NCBI GenBank assembly: GCA_037127255.1
Contig: JBANSL010000002.1
Location: 95,572,519-95,636,518 of the forward strand
DNA length: 64,000 nucleotides
Source: Persicaria tinctoria
Taxonomy: Eukaryota > Streptophyta > Magnoliopsida > Caryophyllales > Polygonaceae
Reading direction: 5' to 3'
Positions 1,158 through 20,232 of the stretch are shown here, piece by piece. A program made the translations under genes and the position numbers. The notes beneath the pieces were generated by a model. That model was not told where the DNA came from, ran no database searches, and saw only the letters and a list, made by a program, of their open reading frames with translations. Within the stretch, counting starts at the first letter, position 1. Each line of letters starts with the position of its first letter.

Positions 1158-2738
1158 GATAGATAGATAATTAAAAAAAACTAACAAAATAAGGATAGCA
1201 AAACAATAAAAATAAACATTGAGTCAATATATAACTTGTTTTACTTTTAACCTGTAATAATGTGTAATCAGATGTAAAAAATTTAAGCTTAGTTGCTCTT
1301 ACTTAATTTTGAAATTGAGTAATATAAGATCTCATTAGTAAAAATAAACCTCCACTGTTGTTTTGTAAAAGAAAATAGATTCAATGGACCAAACATACAA
1401 AGAACATTGAGATGCGGATAAATCGACAGTAAACTAACCTTCATGCTACAAAATAAACAACAAACATAAGAGATCATGAACCATTTAATGAAAGAAGATA
1501 CAAGCAAATCGGCGATAAATGCAAAGAAACCTCGAGATTGGGCTAAAGATGAAAGGATATAACTATATAAGATAGTAAAAGCTAACACGATATCTCATTG
1601 TAAAAAAAGTAGAATAATAGAAACCCACATTTGCAAAATTGACAACACTTGGACAAATGCAGATCACACGACATTTCCTCATTTATTCAAATGATCTTAG
1701 AAATTACGAACACAACCACGATCGATCGTTATAACCAATCAGACATAAGTGACTACAAGCACCATCAATAGTTCCACTGTACTAGTCTCATTGGGTAGGC
1801 CAGGTTAATATTTTGGTATGGATTTTTGGTTTTGGTTTTTTAGGATTTGATAAAAACTCATTTCTATTGACATATCTTGAGCTTCCCCTACTTACTACAT
1901 TCATTTTCAATGCTCATTATTTTTTTTTCATTTATGGCAAAATACCTATTCTTAATGTCGAAGATTAAATAATTGTCATTATTTAATTTGAACATCCATA
2001 GTTATTCTGCCGGCTGTTATTCCAGTGGAACACTTTTGAATAGGCTTTACCTAATTTCAGAATTTAGGATAATCACTAAAAAAGATTCGGCTTTAATTAG
2101 AGGTTGATTAGCATATGAGAAATTGCTTCCTACACAACAGTTTTCAATACTTGTTGATTAATTAAAAAAAGATGCTTGTTCATATTGTATACCTTTCAAT
2201 TGTAAATAGTTTAATCTACGTACACTACAAGAACATATTCCCAAAGGGCTCTTAGAAATTTAGAATCTTTCAGCTTGTAAACTCGAGCATCAGAAACCAA
2301 TATTTATATTATAATATTGTTGCTTAAAGGCAAAGCTTTTCTATCCTGCTGTAAACTAGTAATTGAGATCTTCTTATACACAAATATACATGATTTTCTT
2401 CTTAATTGACCAACATATTTTCGATTTCAATATGAAGTTATTTTTATCATAAAAATAAATAATAAACAAATTGAGTGCAGTTTGTCAATCGGGTGATTCG
2501 GGTTCTGGGTAAATCTGGTCTCGAGTAGAACCCAATTTCGCAAATTCAAGTTTTTTATTTTTATTTTTGCATTTTAGAATCGGAATTTGCAATACGACGA
2601 ATATGGTCCATATGGACTAGATCAATAAGAGGTTTTTTTTTAATCGAACATTATTTGACCAAGTTTGTTCACATTATGGTATGTTCAATATTTTTACTAT
2701 CATAACTAAAATTAACAATTTAACAATGAATACACTAA
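1158..2738. other. AT-rich intergenic DNA, nothing recognised
   Basis: No frame shows a known domain, and no terminal repeats or RNA signatures are evident. A 99-codon minus-strand frame at 1289-1588 is low complexity and unlikely to be coding. Confidence 0.4.
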
Positions 2739-2899
2739 GACTATCCACAATGGTTTTGTCTATAATGTATACATTTGCACAAGGTGTGTAAAAATACACC
2801 TTACTTTTTGGTATTTTGCTCTAATGGTTAAATGTGTATTTTTACACATCATTCAAATACAATTAATTTAAAACAAAAATTATAAAAATACACCAATTG
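2739..2899 (+). mobile_element. Tourist-like MITE, left half (split by the LTR element)
   Basis: It begins GACTATCCACAATGG after a TAA target triplet (2736-2738) and runs until the LTR element at 2900. The copy at 8904-9250 has the same start and interior (ACACCTTACTTTTT and AAATACACCAAT). The interior appears to resume at 8832-8900, so the LTR element landed inside this MITE. The PIF/Harbinger (Tourist) assignment rests on the short TIR and the TWA triplet. Confidence 0.6.
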
Positions 2900-3051
2900 T
2901 GATAAACCGTAAGAATAGAGAAGAGAGGCGCAGAGAAGAGAGGAGAAACTGATGTATTATTGGGGTCTTCAGGACCCTTGATATATGAGTTTACATATGG
3001 AACTAGGGTTTACTAGTGTTTATCCATCCCTAATATAATAATATTATAACA
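2900..3051 (-). repeat. 3' LTR (152 bases)
   Basis: On the minus strand it starts TGTTATAATATTATT directly after the purine tract and ends CTTACGGTTTATCA, giving the expected TG...CA ends. Its last 96 bases recur at 8736-8831. It contains GGGTC-TTCAG-GACCC (2963-2977), the same hairpin type that fills the interior. Confidence 0.7.
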
Positions 3052-3060
3052 CTCCCCCTT
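3052..3060 (-). other. Polypurine tract of the LTR element
   Basis: The minus strand reads AAGGGGGAG immediately before the TG that opens the 3' LTR. This is the position and composition expected for the plus-strand primer of an LTR retrotransposon, and it fixes the element's orientation as minus. Confidence 0.65.
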
Positions 3061-3082
3061 GGATAAACATCCTTAAATACTA

Positions 3083-3335
3083 CTCCCTCCGTTCGGCAAA
3101 ACTTGTCGTTTTAGAGTTTTGTTTTTGTTCGGAAAAACTTGTCATTTTAGGTATTTTTGCTTCTACTTTACTAAAATGCCCTTGATTTGATTGATGTGTT
3201 GTGAGTTGTAGTTTTTGATAAAGTAAAAAGTAGAGTAATAAATGAGGGTAAATTAGTAAAAAAGGAGTGTAATTATTAGCTTTATTAAAATTTGTGTGGA
3301 GAGTTAAAATGACAAGTTTTGCCGAACGGAGGGAG
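3083..3335. mobile_element. Stowaway-type MITE
   Basis: The termini CTCCCTCCGTTCGGCAAAAC and GTTTTGCCGAACGGAGGGAG are perfect inverted complements. A TA precedes the left end and a TG (decayed TA) follows the right end. This is the typical plant Tc1/mariner-derived MITE pattern. It has no coding capacity, and the frame at 3080-3355 is only its translation. Confidence 0.85.
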
Positions 3336-3713
3336 TGCCTCATTACAAATATCACCTAGAAAACCCAATGGGACAAACAAGGTTCCAGAGAACAAATACA
3401 TATGACATTTGATACGCTTTGGTGACATGCCTCGTTAAAAACCTTGTCAGGAAAACTCAGTGGGACAAAACCTGATCGAAGGGAAAAAGAGTGCAGTGCG
3501 TATACTCCCCCTGAATTCAACACCCTTCTTGTAGTCTTCTCATTCGGATAAGCTCTTTGAACTTCTTGATGATGCTGACTGTATGACCTGCATATCCGAG
3601 TCTCAATATTTCCTTTGACGTGTATAAGTTGAGATGTCTTCATACATTACAATTGACTTCGAATGCTTGACTTCCATTTGCTGGCGTTGAGCTGCTTTCA
3701 ATGCACAAACATA

Positions 3714-6700
3714 AGGTACTTCAGGACCTAGTGTGTCATTTCATCATGGGGGATCTAGTGTATTAAATGGTGTCTAAGTTGCCTCGTTAAAAACCTTAAC
3801 TTGGGAAAACCCAATGGGATAAAAACCAAGATCAAGGAAAAGAGTACAACATTGTATGGTACTTCGGGACCTAATGCAATGTCACCATTTTCACAATTAT
3901 AGGTACTTCAGGTACCCTTATAGGGATCTTTAATCAATTGTATGTGGCAGGGCTTTGATATTAATGCTTCAGACATTTTCAATCGATCCTTTCATTTATA
4001 TGTGTATGCACCTACCACGTCCATTATTTCAATTTGGAGCCAAAATTATATTCACTTCTGGTGAATACATTATCCATATAACCTTTGATAGGTCGGCTTT
4101 TGTGCAATCAAGTTGGCTTTATATTTTATTTTGTATGAACACCCACTTAAAACCAAATGATGTTGCACTTTTCGGTGTTGGAACTACAGGTCAAATGCCA
4201 TCATGCTTAAAGAACCCATTCTTGCATGAATTTCTTTTTTCTAGCTCTTTTAATATGATTTCGATGTCGACATCCATTATTTATTTGATGATCATCATAT
4301 TCTCATAGGCTCTTTCCACTTTTGGGGAATCGTATACCAAGAGCCTAGTGATCTCCAACACTTCTGGTGTATTTGAGAACCACTTGATATTCATGGAGTT
4401 GAAGTTACTTCTGGAACTTCCAAATGAGCTAGTATCTGTGACTTTATCACTTTCTTGGCTTATAGTAAATGCTTTCGATGACATATTTGCTAAACCTTAT
4501 AATCATTTCATTTATTGAACTTCTGGTTCACTTGTATTTATCCGCGGATATGAAATGATAGAGAAATTGCTTTCGTGCAATCTCTTTCTTAATTGTCTCA
4601 TTTCCTCTCCCCCCAAATACCGAGCATTTAATCACCATTATAAAGCTCTAGGTATTTGATATCAATAGGGACTCAAACCTCACGTATCATCCAACTTCTT
4701 TGTGGTCTCATTGTAGCTCATTTGGAGGAGGTACATCTCAGAACATATGTTGTTTATTCAAAACCTTTGAATGACATACTCTCTTCTGGAGATAATTAGG
4801 GAGATGTTATTGTGTCAAATTCGAAATGCAAACATGCATGGGCCCATTTGACCAGCAACTCTTCTGGGTCGTCGTGAGCTACCGTATGCTCAACAATGTG
4901 GTTGATAACATTCTCTACCTTATGTTTCATATGACCAAAGTGTTGAGGCATCTATAATCTTGGAATTACACTGGTCCATATAATAGTGTTCCGTAGCTGT
5001 CTCATTGAATCCACTCAAGAGACATTAGAGACTTTGCATTTACTTTGAATTTAGATGGTCTTGTTGTTGATTTGCCAAGATGACAGACCATATGTGTTCG
5101 GTCACCCTTCTAGACGATCTTCGGGTCCTAGGATCTTCTGGTCCCTTTTAGTGGGTGTGTATGTGAATGTCAATGATCCCGCCCATCATCGTTTCACATG
5201 AATGACCGAATGCCACAAAGAAAAACATTTTATCATTAACTAACTTCTGGTTAGTGATAAGTTTCAATGGGATAAATGAGTGTCAAATAAACCATATATA
5301 TACATTCGCAATTATGTAAGACTTGCTTCTGGCTAGTCATATGAGATATTGGTGTTCAATACCATACATATGTGTCATTGTTACTTCAGGTAACAAGATC
5401 AATGCTCTTCTGGAGCTATATGATATTTATCTTGGTTTTTCCATTCAAGAATGTTTGAGAAAACTTCAGGTTTTCAAAATTGTTTGACACTTGTAAAACC
5501 ATATTATTCAACCATTGAACCTTGTATATGGTGATCTATTTAATTTATATGTCATTTAATGGGTATTGTCAGAACTTTCGTTGGTGTCATACTTCAGGTA
5601 TGAGTCATATATAATGTTCTTTAAGACATTTAGAATTAACCGTATAACAGACCTAGCTATAAGCCACAACAATAACTTTGGTCAAGCGCTTAACCATAAC
5701 CTCTTTCACACCCTCTACCGGAGGGGAATGCTTCAGGCAATGCTTAGAGGATAGTCAGGAAGTGGCCTTCTTAACCGGGTCGTGTTATGTGGTTACTTCT
5801 ATTGGTTGTACCAACCGAATAATAATCGTTCTGAACTTGATAAAAACCCACATTCCATTTACTTCTTCAAGAGTACAAATAATAAGATTAGAATCATATA
5901 CTCTTCTAGAGTTTATAAGAATCATTCACTCTTCCGGAGTTTAATAAAAATCCACCAGCAGAGTCTTCAGGCTCTTAGGTTTGTGTTGAAAATTTTACAA
6001 TCTACGAGATTGTGGTCAACCTTTCTCCCAAATGTTCATTTGCCAAACAAAACCTCGTGTTATACACTCATGATAAGTTTTTTCTTCGAGAAAAACTTTG
6101 ACCTTTGAATACAATAAGTAAAATCATAATAATTTTATTCAATATAAAAGCAATGAAAACAAAACAAATAAATAAATAAATAAAATAAAATAAAATAAAA
6201 TTGTATTTGTCCACTTTAGGTGGAGCCATGAGAAAAACTTGTCAATTTATCATCTTTTTCCATAAATGAGTGACAATTAATCTCTATTATGTATATTTCG
6301 ATCATATACTCCAAAAGATGATAAGTTGCAATTCAAAAATATAGTAAGTTTTCATATAAACATTAACCATATTCTTCAAGAAATGGTACGTTTGATTATT
6401 ACTCACTTCATGGAGAAGACAACTTGTATACATTCATTTTAATTTCTACACTTCTGGGTATTTGTGCAACTTTAAAATAAAAACTCATACACTTCAGGAC
6501 ATGGTTTCGTCATTAAGAGAATATACAATATATCTCATATCATTCATTTACTTCAGGAAATGAATATTGTCACTTCAGAGACAAATTTGTGTTGATGAGA
6601 TAGTGAGACATTTTATGAATTTCTTTTTCATATACAACTCTTCAAGAGATGATTGTCGTTACTGCAGGAACGATTTAATTATGAGCATGATGTGTTCATC

Positions 6701-7930
6701 CTCTTCAGGGGATGAGTTTATTTATTTCAAGAGATAATGATAAATAAATACACAATTGATATATTTAATAAAATTATAAAATCGTAAATAAATAAAATCA
6801 AATTGGCATATTGTCAACTTCTGATGACAAGAAAATGAACATTTGCAAATACATGTTCGTCTACTTCTGGAGACTGGTGGAGAAACCATAATTTGCTTGT
6901 TTAGCTATAAAAATCATCGGTTCAGGGACGATTATGAATTTTAATTTATTTTTTTATCTACTACGGGAGATAAATTTTATCATGATATATAAGCTAAAAT
7001 ATTTATCTTCTTCAGGAAATAAATAAGAATTTCATCTTCTTCAAGAGATGTGATACATAAATTGTGTTTACTTTATCTACTTCGGGAGATAAACTATCAT
7101 TTTTTGGGATGATATGCAAATTTATCAATTTATATCTACTTCGGGAGATAATGTTTGTCTACTTCTGGAGACAAAAAAAAATACAAAAACTAAAAAAAAT
7201 CATCACTACGGGGATGGTTTTCAATCGTTCAAATCTACTTCAAGAGATGTTCCGTTCATCTACTTCGGGAGATGATGATTAAACAAATATAATTTAAATA
7301 AATTAAATTAAATAACATACATACATATAAATAAATAAATAAACATAAATAATAAATATAATTTCATCACTACAGGGATGAAATTTATCGACTTGATCAT
7401 CTCTATGGGGATGAGATTTATCGTTTCATCGCTTCGAGGATGAGATCAATTTATCATTCATCTACTTCGGGAGATGTGCTCGTTCATCTACTTCGGGAGA
7501 TGATTTCGTTCATCCACTCCTGGAGATGATATATAAATTTAACAATTTTATCTACTTCAGGAGATAATTCATCTACTTCGGGAGATGAAAAATAATTAAA
7601 AAAAACCATAAAAATAAGATAAATAAAATAAATAAATAAATCATCACTACAGGGATGAAATTCGACCGTTTTTCATTTCAGTGATATAATAAAATAGCAT
7701 CCACTTCAGGGGATACTACCGATTGATTCAATCACTTCAGGGATTGAGATTACTTTATCAATCGCTTCGGGATTGAGATTCCACTTCAGGGGATACTACA
7801 ACTTCGATTGATTCAATCACGATTGAGATTACTTTATCCTTTATCCGCTTCAGGGATATTATAATTTCGATTGATTCAATCACTTCAGGAATTGAGATTA
7901 TTTTATCCGCTTCAGGGGATACTACAAAAT
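3714..7930. repeat. Array of more than 40 short hairpins with a conserved ACTTCNGG loop and varying stems
   Basis: Units have the form stem, ACTTCNGG (N = A, G or T; sometimes ACTACNGG), complementary stem. Examples: AGGT/ACCT at 3714-3729; GAAGTT/AACTTC at 4401-4420; TTGTTAC/GTAACAA at 5378-5396; TCATAC/GTATGA at 5587-5603; ATTCATTT/AAATGAAT at 6542-6565; TTGTCA/TGACAA at 6811-6830; TTTATCT/AGATAAA at 6953-6974 and 7072-7093; TTTGTCT/AGACAAA at 7154-7175; AATTTCATC/GATGAAATT at 7360-7385. Density rises toward 7000-7930. The loop is conserved while both stem arms change together. As RNA the plus strand gives C(UUCG)G-type tetraloops. The minus strand, the likely genomic RNA, gives C(GAA)G-type loops. 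Function is unknown. Confidence 0.85.
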
Positions 7931-7999
7931 CGATTGACCACTTTGGGGGTTACACATCATCTTTGGAGATGTGTGAATACGTCACAGGGGCAAAATATG

Positions 8000-8735
8000 A
8001 AAACCCTATCAGTTTTAGGCCGTTTTCTGTAAATATATAAAATATACAGCCCGATTTGTGATTTTAAGAAATTGCCGGCCGGTTTTATAATTATTAAAAC
8101 GAAACCTGCAACTTAACCTTCTTCCTCCAGAATTATAGATCGGCGGCGGAGGTTTATGCCGTAATTCATCTTCTTCGTTGATGGTCGCGGCGGTTGCTGG
8201 AGAAGCGTCCCCCACCGAAGCAGGCGGATGATCATCGCGCTGCCGTCGCGGTGGAGTTACAGCTTCATCGATCCCTTCGAGGCGGCGATCGGAATCGCGC
8301 GGAGGGGAGACAGAGGGCTCTGCGAGATCAAGGCCGATGAAACGGCGTCGTTTTCGGGATCAAGACGACTGCGACCATGACGCGATTCCTGACCCGATCG
8401 AGGCGTTGCCGGCCCAGTCAGCATCTTTAACGGGCCACAATTCAGGGGAGTTGGAATCCATCGTCTTCTTCAATCGAACAAAGGCGGTGTCAGGGCACCG
8501 TGAAGGCGCCAAGTCCGGTACAACTGATCTCTTTTCGTTTGCATCATCGACCGGCGGTGGCGCACAGTGACGGTGTGGTGGTTGCAGACTGACGTCGCCG
8601 GTCAAAGACTAATCAACGGTAGTTAGGGATTTGGGGGAAACGAGTTTACGACGAGAGAGATTGGGTTGGGAGACCGAGAAAAGGGCCGGACAACAATCTT
8701 GAAACCCTAGAGCATTAGAGCAAACTGACAACGTG
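8000..8735 (-). other. GC-rich leader region of the LTR element with weak open frames
   Basis: This stretch is much richer in GC than its surroundings and reads on the minus strand as a pyrimidine-rich leader after the 5' LTR. Two minus-strand frames (8605-8360, 81 codons, starting MTGDVSLQPP; 8215-8015, 66 codons, starting MGDASPATAA) are open but lack recognisable domains. They could be gag remnants, captured host sequence or chance frames. Confidence 0.35.
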
Positions 8736-8831
8736 TGATAAACCGTAAGAATAGAGAAGAGAGGCGCTGGGAAGAGAGGAGAAACTGATGTATTATTGGG
8801 GTCTTTAGGATCCTTGATATAGGAGTTTACG
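8736..8831 (-). repeat. 5' LTR, truncated
   Basis: It is the 96-base counterpart of the 3' LTR, with about 6 differences. The first 56 bases of the LTR (minus-strand sense) are missing: similarity stops at GTAAACTC. This means deletion of the outer end after insertion. Confidence 0.65.
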
Positions 8832-8900
8832 TGTGATTAGTAAAATTTTTGAAAAAAAAATTTGCGCGTGGGGGAGGTGATGTGCTCAAATTTGCACACA
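8832..8900 (+). mobile_element. Tourist-like MITE, right part
   Basis: TTGCGCGTGGGGGAGGTGAT followed by GTGCTCAAATTTGCAC matches the middle of the copy at 8904-9250. It appears to continue the MITE whose left half lies at 2739-2899. Confidence 0.5.
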
Positions 8901-8903
8901 TTA

Positions 8904-9250
8904 GACTATCCACAATGGTTTTGCCTATAATGTATACATTTGCACAAGGTGTGTAAAAATACACCTTACTTTTTACTAATTTGCTCCAATGGTCAAATAT
9001 GTATTTTTTACCCACTATTCAAATACAAATAATTTAAAAACAAAAAAGAAAACAAAAAACACAAAAAATACACCAATAAAATTGTCTTACTTTTTAAAAA
9101 AGTTTTTGCACATGGGGAGGTGATGTGCTCAAATTTGCACATTGCATTCTCAAATGTGCACATTTGCACACTCCAAAAGCGACCAATGGAGCTAAACAAT
9201 GTTTAAAAAATACACATTTAGACATTCACACACAACCATCGGAGTTACTC
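8904..9250 (+). mobile_element. Tourist-like MITE, second copy
   Basis: Starts GACTATCCACAATGG after TTA (8901-8903) and ends CCATCGGAGTTACTC before TAA (9251-9253). The ends are weak inverted repeats. The interior shares long stretches with the copy split by the LTR element. Confidence 0.6.
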
Positions 9251-9658
9251 TAACAGATTTTCATAACATGCAAAAAAAAAAGAAAAAAAAAAGGGGACAA
9301 ATTCAAACAATTGTCAAAAGAGAACCTGTTTTCTCTAACTCACGAGAAATTGAGTGAAAGTTAAGTTATTATATGTGTTATTCCAAATGCAACTAATCAC
9401 TTGAAAGATTTGTGAGTTGTAAACATGAATAACCTCCAAGACATCACTTGAAAGATTATGAGTGGTAACTCATTAGTCATTACGTTATTATTCATGTTAA
9501 AAAAAAAACAAATAGAGCCATCACAAAACACAAACTCTTACATTATTTCCAAAAGCAAACCACAACCTCTTGGCATTGCAAGAGTTGGTTTCAAAACCTC
9601 AAAACCCTCCGCCTTACATTATTTCCACAAACCGAACACCCTATGCACATGGCATTCC
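9251..9658. other. 3' flank of the 11S globulin gene
   Basis: No coding signal of its own. Just downstream of the globulin stop codon the minus strand contains GAAATAATGTAAGG (around 9620), a possible polyadenylation region. The antisense frames across 9458-10025 are shadows of the globulin exon. Confidence 0.4.
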
Positions 9659-11376
9659 TTACGCCATGGCCCTCCTCTCAGACTCGTCACCGCGGCCACG
9701 AGACCTCGAGCCTGCAGCGAAGAGCACGGTCTCCTCCCTCTCGTTCTTCAGCTTCTCCGCTTCCACTCGGGAGACCTGGTACATGTTCATGATCACATCG
9801 AGGGGCAATGCCCTAAGGAAGGACGTGCGCCCTGCCACTGTCTGGGCGATGGCATTGTCGTTGGTCTTGAACGAGACCCACTCGAACCCTTCATCTCCGG
9901 CTTGCTTCACTAGGACGAAGTTCTGCGGTGCCACCACCAGCTGGTTCTCCTTTAGCTCTCCTTGGAAGACGTCCTGCCCTCTCTCGTTCACGATCTGGAC
10001 CCGAGCGCTTCCCCTTATCGCGTAGATCAGGCTGTGCGCGTTCAGGTTCCAGTGCGGTGCCATCAACGCGTTCTAGCAAGCGAAAACATAGAGTTAGATT
10101 CGGATGTTGAAGTTAACACGATGTATGCTTTCGTGTTTTCGACTTACACTATAAAGGACGCCCTTCTCGGCGCTCAAGCGGACGTTTCGGAGGAATGGGA
10201 GCTTGAAGCTGTTGAGGGCGGTAAGGCGGCCTGCTTGGGGGACAAAGACATCGGCCTCTGATGGATCGTCGATGTTCTCCTTCATCTTGGCGTAGCAAGC
10301 TGTCTCTTCCACACCATTAAACGCGGCCAACAGGCTGTTATCTCTGGTGCTGCGGCTTCCTCTCCTCCCTCCACGGCCTCTGCCTCCTTCATGGCGGCTC
10401 GATCTTCCTCCCTGGCGCTCCTCCCATTGCTCGTCTTCCCTAGCCGTAGGGGGGCTGATCACGCGCAGTTGCTCCGCTCTCACAATCTGGCCCTTCCTGT
10501 TGTCGTCGTTGCTTCGGATCTTGTCGATGATCTCCCTAGGTAGCTGAAAGACCTCCTCTAGGAACTCCGGGTCGAAGCCAGCTAAGATGTTCTTAACACC
10601 TTCCTGTCCTCGTTCGCCTCGCTCCTCCTGGAACTCTTGTTGTGGGTTCCCCGCCAAGAAGAATCCCTACAGACATTAAAAAGTACCATGTAAAATCGAT
10701 CTTCCATGAGGGTGTAACTTCATGAATATACATTCTTACTCTAGGGAAGCTCTGATCGAGTTGGTTGTTTTCGTTGGCAGTGTCGAGGAGATTAACAAGG
10801 ACCAATTCCTCCTCTCCGTCATTGAACACCCATTCAACAATTCCGGCTGGGCCGACAAAGACGTCTCCCTGACGGATCCTCCACACTTTCTGGTGCTGGT
10901 CCCGGACCCCACGGCTCTCCGATTGCCCTCTAGAGACGGATTGGTAGGTCTCCGGGCAACCAGGGGCCGATAGGCCTCGGATTCCCTTACCTGTCACAGA
11001 CACATTTCTTACATCAGGTATATATCATAATGTAATGTCAAAACAACTCACATAAGCCCAAAAAAACAGTAACAAAAAAGTTACCTTTGATGACATAGAA
11101 GAGCTCAGGGGCGCTCCTGAAGTAAGGCAAAAGGAGACCATTGGGATCAATGGAGCGCCTCATGAAGGCGACACCAGAGCACCTGAACTGATCTTCATTC
11201 GGGTCCCAGTATTCGGTCACACCCGCCTCAGACTTGACCCTGCTAGAGGGCTCAAGGGCATTGATTTGGTCGAGCTGGCACTCATCTCCCCTGTCCCGGA
11301 TTCCTAGTGCTAGCAGAAATGAACAACTAAAGGCTAAGAAGCACAAGAACAGAAGGGATGGTGAGGACTTAGCCAT
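9659..11376 (-). CDS. 11S globulin (legumin-type seed storage protein), four exons, complete
   Basis: Exons are 11376-11085, 10990-10740, 10666-10148 and 10072-9659, all with GT-AG introns, giving 491 residues, normal for the family. The start is the second ATG of the longer frame: it follows the TATA box at a suitable distance and opens a signal peptide (residues 1 to about 25, [18 protein letters not shown]). Two cupin domains follow. Cys33-Cys66 would bond within the acidic chain and Cys109-Cys304 between chains. The Asn298-Gly299 bond is the vacuolar asparaginyl endopeptidase site, in the context NGVEETAC. A Gly/Arg/Ser-rich variable stretch precedes it. The protein should trimerise in the ER and be stored as hexamers in protein bodies. 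RY motifs upstream support seed expression. No defect is visible. Confidence 0.95.
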
Positions 11377-14502: not shown

Positions 14503-15759
14503 TTTTTTTTTTTTTTTAATATATTAGGCAAAAAGGGGGCAGAAATCCCAACAGGGACGCCACCCTAATCATCCTTTCGGATGATGTTACAGAAATCCCT
14601 ATTAAAAGGGATATTGGACATAGTACAAATATTCGTAGACTTAGCTAAATAATCAGCAGCTACATTTGCTTCCCTAAAACAATGTCTAAATTCAATAAAC
14701 TCAAAGTTAGGCATCAAGCTTCTGATGAATTCCACTTCCCGAAAGATTTCCCATCTTGCTCTTGAGCTATCATTAATGCTCCTGATCACTTCCAAACAAT
14801 CCCCTTCAATCACAATTCTTCTTAGGCCTTTTGTTATGGCTAACTTGAGACCTGCACAAAACGCAGCAACTTCTGTTTGTATGGCAGAGCTACATGGAAC
14901 CTGTTGTTGAAAAATATCCAGAACACATCCTCCACTATCCCTAAGTATCCCACCCACTTGGCAAAGGCCAGTGGGTTTAGTCGAACCATCTACGTTAATT
15001 TTGTAGGTGGTTCCAAGCGGCTTCTTCCAGCCCACATTTCTATTTTTCTTAATCCGGTTGAGATCCTTGCCTTTATCCTGGGTCATGGCCGTCTGGCATT
15101 CTCGAAATTGGATGCAAGCTTTCATTGCTACCTGTGAAGGCGAATCAGGGTTCTTATTTTTGAAGATCGCACTATTTCTAACTTCCCATATATTTTACCA
15201 GATGTAGATCAGATGATCAATGTTGGAATTAGTCGGTTTTGAGTGAATGAATTCTTTAATAGTAGTTTGGCCATCCGTAGTCGCCCCAAGCGCCAAACCA
15301 ACCAATTGTTCATAGGTGGAAATCACCCTTCTAGTAAATGAACAGTTCAAGAACAAATGTGAATCATTTTCAATATTGTCATCACACAAAACACATCCCA
15401 AGGGGACCCTGTTAAAGTATCTATTGAGTCTTTCTTTGGTGGCTAACGCATCTTGCTGAATTTTCCAAATTAAGTTCTTCAGCCGAGGGGGGATGTTGAG
15501 TTTCCAACACCACTCAGCACCCCCGTAGTTTGTCGCATTGTTGAGAAATAAATGCCTGCAAGAGGCGGTGGTGAAATTTCCATCTGGGTTTAATTCCAGA
15601 CCAATTTATTATGGGGACTCCATGAGGGAATGTTGATCTTCTTAATTTGAGAAACAATAGTATCTGGGAATAACATTTCCAATTTACGAGTGTCCCATTC
15701 CTTATGCTCAGTAATTAGAGTGCTAAGATAAAGATTAGAGTCGTGATGAGCTTGCAAGC
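14503..15759 (-). pseudogene. LINE 3' fragment: zinc-binding RT tail plus RNase H domain
   Basis: A poly-T tract at 14503-14518 marks the poly-A tail of a minus-strand element. The frame at 15125-14565 encodes a plant LINE RNase H-fold domain (INVDGSTKPTG, IEGDCLEVIRSI, FRHCFREANVAADYLAKS). Upstream, 15401-15195 carries the zf-RVT motif (CVLCDDNIENDSHLFLNC). Stop codons and frameshifts separate the pieces. The left part of the LINE is missing: at about 15760 the sequence changes abruptly to Copia reverse transcriptase. There is no second target-site duplication, so the junction arose by deletion or illegitimate joining rather than simple insertion. Confidence 0.85.
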
Positions 15760-18700
15760 GTTCAAGATTTTGAAGCCATCACCCAAAATCACTTCATCAA
15801 ACTTTTGATGCCATTGTTTTGGCGCTTGTTTAAGTCCATAGAGGGACTTGATCAATCGGCACACTTTGTGTTCTTGACCTTCTACTATGAAGCCTTCGGG
15901 TTGCTTCATGTAAACCTCTTCATCCAAATCTCCATTGAGAAAGGCTGTTTTTACGTCCATTTGATGGATGACAAGACCATGAATGCTTGCTAAGGCAATT
16001 AAAAGTCTTATAGTGGTGATTCTAGCCACGGGAGCATAGGTGTCGAAATAATCGACTCCTTCTCTTTGCTTAAAACCTTGTATTACCAATCGGGCTTTAA
16101 ATTTGTCAATGGACCTATCGGCCTTCATCTTCCTTTTGAAGATCCATTTACAACCTAGAGGTTTGCACCCGGTTGGAAGGTCTGACAACTCCCAAGTGTT
16201 GTTGCCAACAATAGAGTCCATCTCATCTTGGATTGCTTCTTTCCAAAATGCGACATCTTGAGAACTCATTGCCTCGGTGAAGGTCTTAGGATCCTCATCC
16301 ATATGTAGATATGAGATGATTTGACCTTCTTTATTCCTAGAACCCTCCATCAAGAAGACTTGAAATATTGGTTCAGGATACGTATGTCCTACTAAGAGTG
16401 CGGAGTACACTCGTTATCGCTTGGGTGTGTGGGACGTCGAAGTAGGAGCTTCGCCCTCATCGTCGCTCGCATGCGTCGAGTGCATGTTTTCACCATCACT
16501 ATCGTCGCTAGTGTCTTCCCCAGGTACGCCCATGGCCATGCGTTTTAGCGCCCTTGGCCCTGTAGCTGGGGAGTCTTTGTCGAGCAGTGGCTTTGGGTCA
16601 GCGACATCGATGCTTGGTGCTTGCAGCAAGCTAGCGCGCGTCATAGACCTAGTGACCCTAGGTCCAAGTACAGGCGTCGGCTCCTCGGTTTCCATTGGAT
16701 CCGATGATGGGTCGACATCCTCTTGGTCTATCTCCCTAGGCCTAGGGCTCGACGTGAACCTAGTCTCATCGAATATGGCATCACGTGATTCTATCACGGT
16801 GTTGACCGAGATAGCGTGATTGGGTTCTATGACGAAGAACCTATAGGCCTTAGAGATGTGTGCATATCCAATGAATATGCACTCAATACCTCTATCTCCT
16901 AAGGTTTTACGCTTAGGGTCCGTTAGTCTAACAACCGCACGACAACCCCATATACGAAGATAATGGAGATTTGGTTTTCTTTTAAACCAAAGCTCGTATG
17001 GTGATTGACGACTTCTCTTGCTCGACACCCTATTTAAGATATAGTTGGATGTTAGCATCGCCTCACCCCAAAACGAGTTCTTTAACCCGGAGTATGACAA
17101 CATGGCATTAACCATGTCCTTAAGAACACGATTCTTTCGCTCCGCCACTCCATTTTGTTGTGGGGTATATGGAGCCGTCGTCTCATGAATTATGCCACAA
17201 GACTCAAAATACTCCACATCCATGTATTCACCACCACGATCGGTTCGTAGCCTTTTAATTTTATTTCCCGTTTGCAATTCAACTTCGGTCTTGTATGCTT
17301 TAAACCTATCTAGTGCCTCACTCTTTGAGTGAACTAAATAGACATAGCAAAACCTTGTTACATCATCGATGAACGTTATGTAGTAACGTTTTTGACCCAA
17401 TGATAGCGTTGCATGTAGGTCCCCTAGGTCCGAATGGACTAGGCCTAGGACCCCTTCTTCTCTTTTAATTTCCTTAAAAGGAAGCCTTGTTATTTTTGTT
17501 AACAAGCAAGTTTTACACTTTTCATTTGTTGGTTCAAAGGCGGGAATTATATTTTCCTTAGCCATATCTAGTATACGCTTCATATGTACATGTCCTAACC
17601 TTGCATGTCAAAGATCATATAAAGAATCATTAGACACAACCATGTAATCAAATAATACTTTATTATTATTGATAACATTGAGTAGGAACATATTATTTTT
17701 ATAATGGCCGAAGCCTACAAATATTCCTGCCCTACTTATTACTAATCGATCGGCTTCAAAAACCAATCGATAACCTAACTTGTTAAGCACACCACCGCTT
17801 ACAACATTTTTTCGGATGGCGGGTGCATACAATACATTATGTAATACAAGTTCCTTCCCACTAGTAAAGTTGAGATGTACGTCCCCTTTACCTAGGACCG
17901 GGGTTGTTGACTCGTTTCCCATGTAAAGCACTAAACCGTCCTCTACATCCTTCATGTGCTTGAACCATTTCCTTTCCATACACACATGGGTGGTGGCACC
18001 CGAGTCAAGCCACCAAAGGAGTTTTTCATCCTTCATAACAAGACATTGATCAATGTTAGATACAAAGAATAATGACTCATTTGTAACTAAAGACACAGAA
18101 GTGCCCTTACCTTGCCCGGGGCTTGTGCCCGAGCCCGACGCCGGTGTCATGACACCTTTGTCCTTTGACCCCTTGGACCTGCAGTCCCTCTTCATGTGGC
18201 CTGCCTTTCCACACTTCCAACAAGTTCCCTTGGCCTTAGCCTTCTTGTTAGAACCTTGCTTACTGCCGTTTCCTGATTTGGGACGCTTGGAGCCCTTAAC
18301 GCCCACGGTGCGTTTGTTGTTGCCCGCCTCCATTGTGTTTATTGAGTGGGATGATTTGTCTTCGCCTTTCTTTCCCTTGTCATTCGCCTTGAATTCCTCC
18401 TCTATACGTAGATGGGAACCCAATTGGACAAGGTCCATGTCCTCCTTCGAATGCTTCAAGAGATGTTTCGCCTCCTTCCACGAGTGAGGTAACTTATCGA
18501 TTATGGATGAAACGGCGAAGTTCTCATCCAAGGTGATCCCATGTTGGGTTAGTTGACCCAATACTCGGAGCAATTCGTGGTATTGCTCCATTACCGGTCT
18601 ATTTTCAACCATCTTGTAATTGTTGAAGTTAGACACGAGAAACTTCTTTGAAGAGGCATCTTCCGCCAAGTACTTGGCTTCGAGTGCTTCCCACAAAATC

Positions 18701-19047
18701 CGAGATGTCTCATGATTTTGATACACATCAAATAGGGAGTCGGCCATGCCATTGAGGATGTGCCCACGACAAATGTAGTCGTCATTCTCCCACTTCCCAA
18801 CACGCCTATGTTGAAGCATTATAGCCTCCCTTTCGGCGATTTGAGCCTCGGTCTCTCCGTCGACTTTTTCCGGAATCGGAGGTGGCTCTTCGGGACATGG
18901 CGTTGAGAGCACGTACGCCACCTTAAATGAAGTAAGCATGAAATGCATCTTCTTTTGCCATCGACGAAAGTCTTGCCCTTCAAACTTCTCAAGTTTCGCG
19001 AATTTGGATGCTATCTCCGCCATCGGTAATTCCTTCGTTCTTGCCAT
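15760..19047 (-). pseudogene. Ty1/copia gag-pol polyprotein, truncated in RT, two nonsense mutations
   Basis: A single frame runs from the ATG at 19047. Gag occupies the first 270 residues, with a zinc knuckle CWKCGKAGHMKRDC (Cys276, Cys279, His284, Cys289). The protease has DSGA at 348-351. Then come the GAG-pre-integrase HARLGH motif, integrase (HSDLGDLHA, RTDRGGEYM, YTPQQNGVAERKNR) and the start of reverse transcriptase (WKEAIQDEMDSI, KARLVIQGF, DVKTAFLNGDL, SLYGLKQAPKQWH). A TGA at 17610-17608 replaces the usual Trp before HARLGH. A TAA at 16416-16414 interrupts the integrase-RT linker. Both stops are in the same frame with no frameshift. The YVDD core, RNase H and 3' LTR are lost at the LINE junction near 15760. 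Confidence 0.9.
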
Positions 19048-20232
19048 TCCAACCTTGTTTCAAAACAACAAAACCAAACAATAAATAAACGTTGAAGATT
19101 GTTAGGTTTAAAGGTAATGTTGTTTTAATAGGTTGAAGGTAAATTCGGTTCTTGTAGATCCTTTCGGATAATCAAGACAATTTGAGTAGACCCAAAAAAG
19201 GGTAATCTCATGGGTAGACCTCGAAAGGTAATCCCGAGGGAGTAGGCCAAAAAGGCAATCTCCACCGAATTCTTTTAGGCGACAAAACTAAGTGTTTAAG
19301 CTCTTTAGAAAAGATATATAAAATGGCTTGGATAATGGCAAACGAGTCACTCAAATAAATCGAGTTTTCCTTCAACGTTTATTGCCCCTATATGTCAAAG
19401 GGTTGCACTACAATAATGTTGTGGGATAAAACGTTTCCTATACAATAAAAGGGTGGCATCCCATTTCATTATTGCATATATACATACCTTGTTTGTGTTT
19501 TAAGTGTTTGTTCTTCCGATTGAGAGAGATATCGGAAAAACTCATACCTTTCCAAGTGGATGGCAAAGGCCTTTTATAGGCAAAATGGGGTGGAAGTTTT
19601 TGGGTGGTTATGGGTAGTTATTGGTAGTTATTGGTGGTTATGGGTAGTTATGGTGGTTGGGCGGTTACCCCCCAATAACTACCCCCAACCGCCGGCCCAA
19701 TAAGGCCCAATAAAGGCCCAATAAAAACCAGCCCAATTAAGGACAAGCTAGCATGACGGAGCTAGCATGGTGGAGCTAGGTCACTCATAAAATATGAAAT
19801 GTGCATGACATTTATACGAAGCTGGGTGTAGCTACCATGCAGCTAAAATGACAAAGCTAAAGCTTCAATGAAGCTAAAACCCTAATCAAGCTCAAAATTA
19901 GAGCTAGGTCATTTTTGGAGTTCCGAAGCTCGGCTAGCTCTCAAATTTTGCACCAAGACTTTAGAGCTTAATATCTTCCTTTACAAATCATGAGACGGTG
20001 ATTTAACTTACTATAAGTGAACAAAACTCGATCATAACCATATTAGATCGAATACCGAACATATCCTATTGCTCACTTTTATGGAAAACATCCAAACAAG
20101 CTCAAGACCGATTTTCTCAATGTTGATATCATTGCATGGGTCTTTCCTCCTGATTTCCTTTCCCCTTAAAATCTTAGAATTGCTTAGGGCCGATCACATG
20201 GGCCGTGCCTCCCGCACACCCTAAGCCCGAGT
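19048..20232 (-). mobile_element. Copia 5' untranslated region and probable 5' LTR
   Basis: Upstream of gag on the minus strand, CCTATAAAAGG at 19580-19572 looks like an LTR TATA box, followed by a leader with CGATATCTCTCTCAATCGG. The exact LTR ends and the primer-binding site could not be fixed, because the 3' LTR is gone and no TGGTATCAGAGC-like stretch is seen. The GGTAGTTATTGGTGG-type imperfect repeats at 19609-19660 lie upstream of the TATA box. Confidence 0.5.

Follow-up and report, generated by a model that had tools for sequence, protein, structure and literature searches.

A constant-loop hairpin array with slot-specific stems in a protein-less long terminal repeat retrotransposon family of Persicaria tinctoria

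By what means retrotransposons without proteins have other elements package and copy their RNA is still an open question. It is raised by a locus of Persicaria tinctoria at which an element of this kind carries dozens of hairpins built around one loop. The window, a stretch of 64,000 nucleotides (assembly GCA_037127255.1, contig JBANSL010000002.1, positions 95,572,519 to 95,636,518, forward strand), contains a long terminal repeat (LTR) element whose internal region holds the hairpin array at 3714–7950, with 57 scored hairpins whose loop reads (A)CTTCNGG on the plus strand and CCNGAAG(U) in the sense of the element. An initial annotation had described more than 40 hairpins with covarying stems and a fixed loop inside an LTR element. 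The array itself is confirmed, its four example hairpins (4401–4420, 5378–5396, 6542–6565 and 7360–7385) were found at those coordinates, an LTR pair with a polypurine tract (PPT) beside the LTR bears out the setting, and the interpretation offered with it is partly supported. We propose, tentatively and with somewhat less than an even chance of being right as a whole, that the locus represents an element of the large retrotransposon derivative (LARD) type with a selected multivalent hairpin scaffold, putatively bound by a trans-acting copia protein.

The array contains 41 exact CTTCNGG cores on the plus strand and none on the minus strand, compared with 49 and 7 in the whole window. Perfect stems around these 41 cores averaged 4.02 bp, versus 1.24 ± 0.18 bp when right arms were swapped (0 of 5000 swaps reached the observed value), and stems of at least 4 bp surrounded 24 of them, versus 2.8 after swapping (maximum 9). 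The comparison with dinucleotide shuffles proposed in the initial annotation agreed with this result: a shuffled array had a mean of 0.76 cores, and the mean number of hairpins with a stem of 4 bp or longer was 0.006 (maximum 1; 500 shuffles). The excess persisted in the diverse half of the array by itself: the 40 cores that lie below 6900, counted with no more than one mismatch, had a mean run of 3.77 bp versus 0.82 bp after swapping (0 of 5000). Arm-swap and shuffle controls thus bear out pairing around a constant loop and rule out chance or base composition as the origin of the hairpins. Complementarity is not universal, contrary to the initial annotation: with at most one mismatch allowed, the array holds 66 cores, 57 of which have a scored stem and nine of which do not. 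The 298 pairs in the scored stems comprised 289 Watson-Crick pairs, five A-C, one G-T and three others. Hairpins with other loops were not in excess. Among 27 hairpins in the array with arms of at least 6 bp and loops of 5–8 nucleotides, 20 span a core and seven do not, and given that the seven match the level in 60 whole-array shuffles (6.6 ± 2.4), the excess is confined to the CTTCNGG loop.

Two loop registers were distinguished. The 8-nt loop ACTTCNGG is present in 41 units, of which 35 lie from 5960 up, and the 7-nt loop CTTCNGG in 16, of which 15 lie at 3.9–5.94 kb, so that 3906–5940 forms a zone mostly of the shorter loop; the registers are spatially clustered (2 of 5000 shuffles). A covariance model (R1), trained on the 41 eight-nucleotide-loop units and then searched against the window, placed its 45 best matches inside 3710–7955 on the minus strand, ahead of any match outside, and these corresponded to 40 of the 41 training units plus five new units. 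Within the 41 units, 77.2% of cells were paired versus 55.1% in shuffles, covariation was 0.66 versus 0.24 (0 of 500), and further pair types were slightly above shuffles (29 versus 24.5, 13 of 500). When slots of the array are compared, loops are far more alike than arms. Every exact loop also holds a CNG methylation site.

Arm diversity differs along the array. Below 6900, 33 units have 32 distinct inner tetramers, and the view of the initial annotation that this is not a tandem repeat holds there; from 6900 up, 24 units have seven, with tandem units of 26-bp and 63-bp periods, and this stretch behaves in part as inherited tandem units. The tandem units and the unit gains and losses from 6900 up would suit a decaying satellite, composed of hairpins since its origin and without function today. 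We consider this highly improbable for the array, given that pairing is retained across the 32 distinct inner arms below 6900; moreover, Tandem Repeats Finder detected small local arrays only, and arms vary from unit to unit.

The LTR repeats, the PPT adjoining the LTR, and the LTR/PPT ends of relatives place the element on the minus strand. The 3' LTR (2898–3051, 154 bp) reads TGTTATAATATT...TTTATCACA in sense and is abutted by the PPT (3052–3060, sense AAGGGGGAG), which was read directly, while the 5' LTR (8734–8835) is truncated, its first ~52 bp missing; the repeat pair 2898–2999/8734–8835 is 93% identical. The sense-5' end of the array (6950–7950) consists of homogeneous units (ATCT/AGAT and CATC/GATG stems) with sub-repeats in tandem, and most of the units gained or lost between copies lie here. 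Next to it is a G+C-rich 5' leader (7960–8733) that is only partly alignable between copies and whose end, resembling a primer-binding site, has decayed in the window copy. None of ten reading frames of the element had a Pfam match above cut-off, a tblastn search with the window's copia proteins found no gag-pol in the element, and Rfam returned nothing above threshold (one weak small nucleolar RNA match, E 0.72). This anatomy, and the assignment to a family described below, are very likely correct. Given the minus-strand orientation, the sense loop is CCNGAAG(U) and not UUCG, which would form on the antisense strand. The exceptional UUCG stability invoked by the initial annotation therefore falls away, and the base needed for UUCG is free in any case, with N being G in only 12 of 57 units.

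Relatives were searched in the host assembly (1.68 Gb), where scoring covered the best 25 of 5308 candidate places. Besides the window, at least 24 long matches cover 2.6–4.8 kb of the 6.0-kb query at 84–91% identity, and 20 of these, all from the same genome assembly, were fetched for comparison. The array is present in each of the 20, always in one orientation: exact cores number 25–57 per copy, of which 15–45 have a stem of 4 bp or more, and antisense cores, all of them without a stem, number 0–2; across the array, identity to the window is 91–95%. Some of the copies are not independent of one another; many variants are common to L031 and L033, for example. The LTR of the window element lies at one or both ends of all 20 copies, with the same PPT or a one-base variant beside it. 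An LTR pair was recovered in 15 copies (93.8–100% identical, some measured over truncated stretches), with identity of about 98% or more in nine of them (hereafter the young nine), and clear 5-bp target duplications flank four copies (L024, L025, L028 and L034), although none is readable around the window copy. The near-identical LTR pairs and the target duplications indicate recent mobility of the family. Given that the hairpin array extends to this whole mobile family, the observation is stronger than first stated. The copia proteins of the window had no match in any of the 20 copies, while the same probe found pol in a related locus, L060 (9e-44), and the longest stop-free frames of the copies span 88–268 amino acids.

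Directly behind the 5' LTR, 11 of the 20 copies (L027–L030, L032 and L034–L039) carry CGTTATCAGCACGA with 0–2 mismatches; it was not found in the window copy within three mismatches. The usual primer site, complementary to a tRNA 3' end, begins with TGG, and CGTTATCAGCACGA does not. Half-tRNA priming is known for copia, and CGTTATCAGCACGA may match an internal tRNA part in this manner. Most changes in array length fall at the sense-5' end: the region from 7000 up, which makes up about a fifth of what was mapped, holds 18 of 30 distinct deletions and 29 of 44 insertion rows, five of which, in L024, probably represent one event.

Differences between copies were used to look for constraint within the hairpins. 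The 20 copies were mapped on the window, a shared variant being one present in two or more copies, and expectations were taken from linker sites of the same base, methylation context and region. In the young nine, shared variants were depleted in stems (21 versus 45.4 expected, 0 of 2000) and at fixed loop bases (16 versus 38.4, 0 of 2000), whereas the free base N had 10 versus 3.9 expected. Singletons in loops were as expected (66 versus 64.2) and those in stems somewhat low (79 versus 100.5). Over all 20 copies, variants present in at least three gave 23 versus 48.5 in stems, 26 versus 46.9 at fixed loop bases and 15 versus 5.2 at N. Within the loop, C1 and C4 were most constrained and T3 and G6 unconstrained, and singletons at G6 and N exceeded expectation; exchange between units is one possibility for the surplus variation at N. 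Because units had been picked on the window copy, a control was run on 46 chance hairpins in linkers, which in the young nine gave 23 versus 26.6 for stems and 22 versus 22.6 for loops. Together with a control depletion over all 20 copies (given below), this means that ascertainment accounts for part of the stem signal, but not all of it. Matching for base only still gave loop depletion in the young nine (16 versus 34.9) and a weak one in all 20 copies (52 versus 65.8, P 0.027); matching for methylation context strengthened it. From these patterns, stems and loops are probably under selection, and the depletion of shared variants at both also argues against a decaying satellite.

The element itself lacks an RVT_2 gag-pol, which is present in L060, a Ty1-copia element of the same genome that has the same 3' region. 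L060 has gag, gag_pre-integrs, rve and RVT_2 domains, in frames that are separate, overlapping or broken, and is 78% identical to window 3338–4195. The two have in common the 3' region, a region of second-type hairpins (described below) and three hairpin slots, but L060 carries only four array-type hairpins, located in its 3' untranslated region (UTR), of which three repeat the stems seen at slots 3967, 4055 and 4184 of the window; the last is decayed in the window and intact in L034. That three slots have the same stems at only 78% identity is a further point against the satellite explanation. The coding part of L060 has no sense hairpin and one antisense hairpin. A locus related more distantly, L059, retains several slot stems and has 11 hairpins whose cores have one mismatch at most, while L056–L058 have 0–2 each (7.5–8 kb fetched), and the array is thus a feature of some branches only. 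Judging from the shared 3' region, the array element is probably of Ty1-copia descent.

An origin and a use can be proposed for the array. It would have expanded from few hairpins carried in the 3' UTR of such copia elements, with growth mainly at the sense-5' end, and would act in the RNA (or cDNA) of the element as a multivalent scaffold for a putative trans-acting copia protein. The binding partner would most likely be Gag/nucleocapsid or reverse transcriptase, and the scaffold would help a protein-less RNA to compete for packaging and copying. That the hairpins serve packaging or recruitment of a putative copia protein is possible, though doubtful; packaging, one of the functions suggested in the initial annotation, is retained as the leading one, still unproved, and hairpin copying, another of its suggestions, as a rival. 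A bolder version, in which an array of selected protein-binding hairpins has grown in place of gag-pol, the element out-competes its autonomous relative for one protein by multivalency, and slot-specific stems prevent loss by recombination, seems to us somewhat unlikely. The array could also be a sink or decoy for a host factor, such as an RNA-binding or silencing protein, instead of a site for a retrotransposon protein. Titration of a single protein would be well served by many identical loops on differing stems, and the retention of few such hairpins in the 3' UTR of L060 fits as well; nothing in the data points specifically to a host protein, and we regard the sink as very unlikely.

Several results weigh against a selected hairpin scaffold acting as sense RNA and against its link to copia. 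Sense-strand folding was not unusually stable (mean z −0.59 versus −0.48 elsewhere in the window, Mann-Whitney p 0.18), at variance with the stable fold first claimed, antisense folding had z −0.90 versus −0.47 elsewhere (p 0.006), and four of the 57 isolated units had no stable fold. If the sense RNA were the selected strand, sense G-U pairs should exceed antisense ones; this polarity was absent over 21 copies (81 sense versus 78 antisense cells), and the lean towards it inside stems of the window alone (five sense versus one antisense, p 0.22) was not significant. Pairs with two-sided change in the eight-nucleotide-loop units showed no excess (8 versus 7.7 shuffled, 369 of 500), and given that the units in the covariation analysis were picked for having a stem, the arm-swap test on unselected cores is the fair test. 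Both arms change together between array slots, as the initial annotation held, but mostly not between orthologous copies, where 93.8% of 6174 cells were paired and the 321 pairs of 62 units had 15 compensatory variants, six of them common to two or more copies; several sit in homogeneous slots, in which paralogues may have been aligned. As for constraint, stems of the control hairpins were also depleted over all 20 copies (24 versus 33.2, P 0.0495), and loop constraint was weaker below 6900 (young nine, 12 versus 19.9, P 0.025; all 20 copies, 20 versus 27.9, P 0.053). With base-only matching, loops below 6900 were not depleted over all 20 copies (33 versus 31.3; 20 versus 19.3), and the context matching depends on few linker CNG sites (16–23). 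Finally, the 3' UTR of L060 also holds one antisense hairpin of equal quality, so that L060 is tied to the array by stem identity only; the LTR of the array family was not found at L060, whose own LTRs were neither located nor matched.

The pairing could also have been maintained by copying and not by selection, if intrastrand template switching during reverse transcription or replication corrects quasi-palindromes and copies changes in one arm across to the other. The almost purely Watson-Crick stems of the window, the rarity of G-U intermediates and their lack of strand preference are consistent with such a process, as are clean double changes between copies (T-A versus G-C in slot 6084, A-T versus G-C in slot 7576). 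What copying leaves unexplained is the depletion at fixed loop bases beside an undepleted N, and the greater likeness of loops than of arms between slots; because loops gain no protection from copying, their constraint counts against copying as the sole cause. Deletion ends examined as marks of template switching had no clear tie to loops, with both ends in loops in three of 30 distinct deletions; both ends lay in units in seven of 30, versus about 2.6 expected from a unit coverage of 29%. We consider copying unlikely as the explanation. The absence of G-U polarity and the Watson-Crick strictness of the stems would likewise suit hairpins that act as DNA, in single-stranded cDNA or as cruciforms on either strand, in plus-strand priming, pausing, recombination or integration complexes, and the loop orientation, constant throughout, agrees with this. 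A role as DNA is distinctly unlikely, given the short, A+T-rich stems and the deletion ends just described. The selected scaffold for a copia protein remains our preferred reading.

If the stems are nevertheless kept by copying, the array would be a natural record of template-switch correction, and either way it supplies some sixty naturally occurring hairpins that differ by paired changes. In terms of recognition, one recently mobile family offers dozens of copies of one candidate motif side by side, and its built-in controls (the free N, the linkers, the slot-specific stems and L060 with few units) make recognition directly testable.

Some single-stranded RNA viruses have dispersed packaging-signal hairpins with a common loop motif and variable stems. 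We draw this comparison for the way of working only, with no claim of homology; the viral hairpins lie in coding RNA and are associated with capsid proteins. Pattern scans of viral and bacterial collections gave 0, 14 and 1 matches, and the 14 viral loci, 13 with one CTTCNGG hairpin (stem of at least 4 bp) and one with two, had no array. Among retrotransposons, Sukkula, described by Kalendar and colleagues in 2004, is reportedly an example of a LARD. LARDs, in the sections of the accounts drawn on here, have LTRs, a PPT and a long conserved non-coding internal domain, and are assumed to depend on proteins in trans (PMC7215508; PMC10794571). The window element resembles them in its LTRs, PPT, long internal domain conserved between copies and lack of a recognised protein, and differs from LARDs as described in those sections by its short 154-bp LTRs and its internal array of one hairpin type with slot-specific stems. 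Despite these LTRs, the internal region of ~5.7 kb sets it apart from terminal-repeat retrotransposons in miniature (TRIMs), which combine a short LTR with almost no internal domain. Retrozymes, as outlined in part of their description, are non-autonomous plant LTR elements with structured RNA, LTRs of ~350 bp each containing a hammerhead, and 600–1000 bp between them (PMC4918200). The array element is likewise a non-autonomous plant LTR element, but it has no Rfam ribozyme match, and no hammerhead was found at E up to 1 across window 2600–9300, so that it does not qualify as a retrozyme. Stem-loops in the 3' UTRs of long and short interspersed nuclear elements (LINEs and SINEs) are recognised by reverse transcriptase, according to the passages used here (PMC5135761). 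That case is similar in that a protein-less parasite may bear a stem-loop recognised by the enzyme of an autonomous element, and, within those passages, differs in concerning non-LTR elements with conserved stem-loop positions and no array. No description of a hairpin array in an LTR retrotransposon was found in the open-licence literature, in which some of our searches were narrow.

A second hairpin type occurs towards the 3' LTR, where at least three hairpins have the loop TTTTnTCCCAnTGGGTTTT. In the window, these are an imperfect CCTAG-type stem around CCCAATGGG (3355–3382, minus strand), a TCAGG/CCTGA stem with a loop similar to that of the first (3447–3475, minus strand), and a CTTGG/CCAAG stem (3800–3830, minus strand). 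The 111 occurrences in the fetched loci, many of them copy-related, have mainly CTTGG/CCAAG, TCAGG/CCTGA and CCTAG/CTAGG stems, and 45 distinct arm pairs had a mean run of 4.04 versus 2.51 when swapped (maximum 3.27 of 3000). This second type indicates that these elements more generally combine a constant loop with stems particular to each slot. A hairpin in the LTR (GGGT/ACCC, 2963–2977) has a stem that recurs in many copies and a loop that varies, and it was therefore not counted as an array unit.

The surroundings of the array include several further features. The G+C-rich leader (7960–8733) is highly variable, with few short blocks at most aligning between copies and none in seven of the 20, and the leaders of the window and L024–L043 may contain captured host sequence. 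Window 3084–3337 (254 bp) has inverted CTCCCTCCGTTC ends, lies outside the coverage of the listed relatives, and looks like a nested miniature inverted-repeat transposable element (MITE), presumably of Stowaway/Mariner type. The element is inserted within an A+T-rich repeat (2738–2897), a second copy of which (93%) lies at 8903–9045; the two probably form a MITE pair, in which the second copy shows the site without the insertion. In L057, a MuDR-type transposase piece (4643–5317) lies upstream of the 3' region. Elsewhere in the window, a separate copia element with gag, integrase and reverse transcriptase pieces, and without the hairpin array, occupies 15715–19059 on the minus strand, and part of an 11S globulin seed-storage gene lies at 10094–10666 on the same strand.

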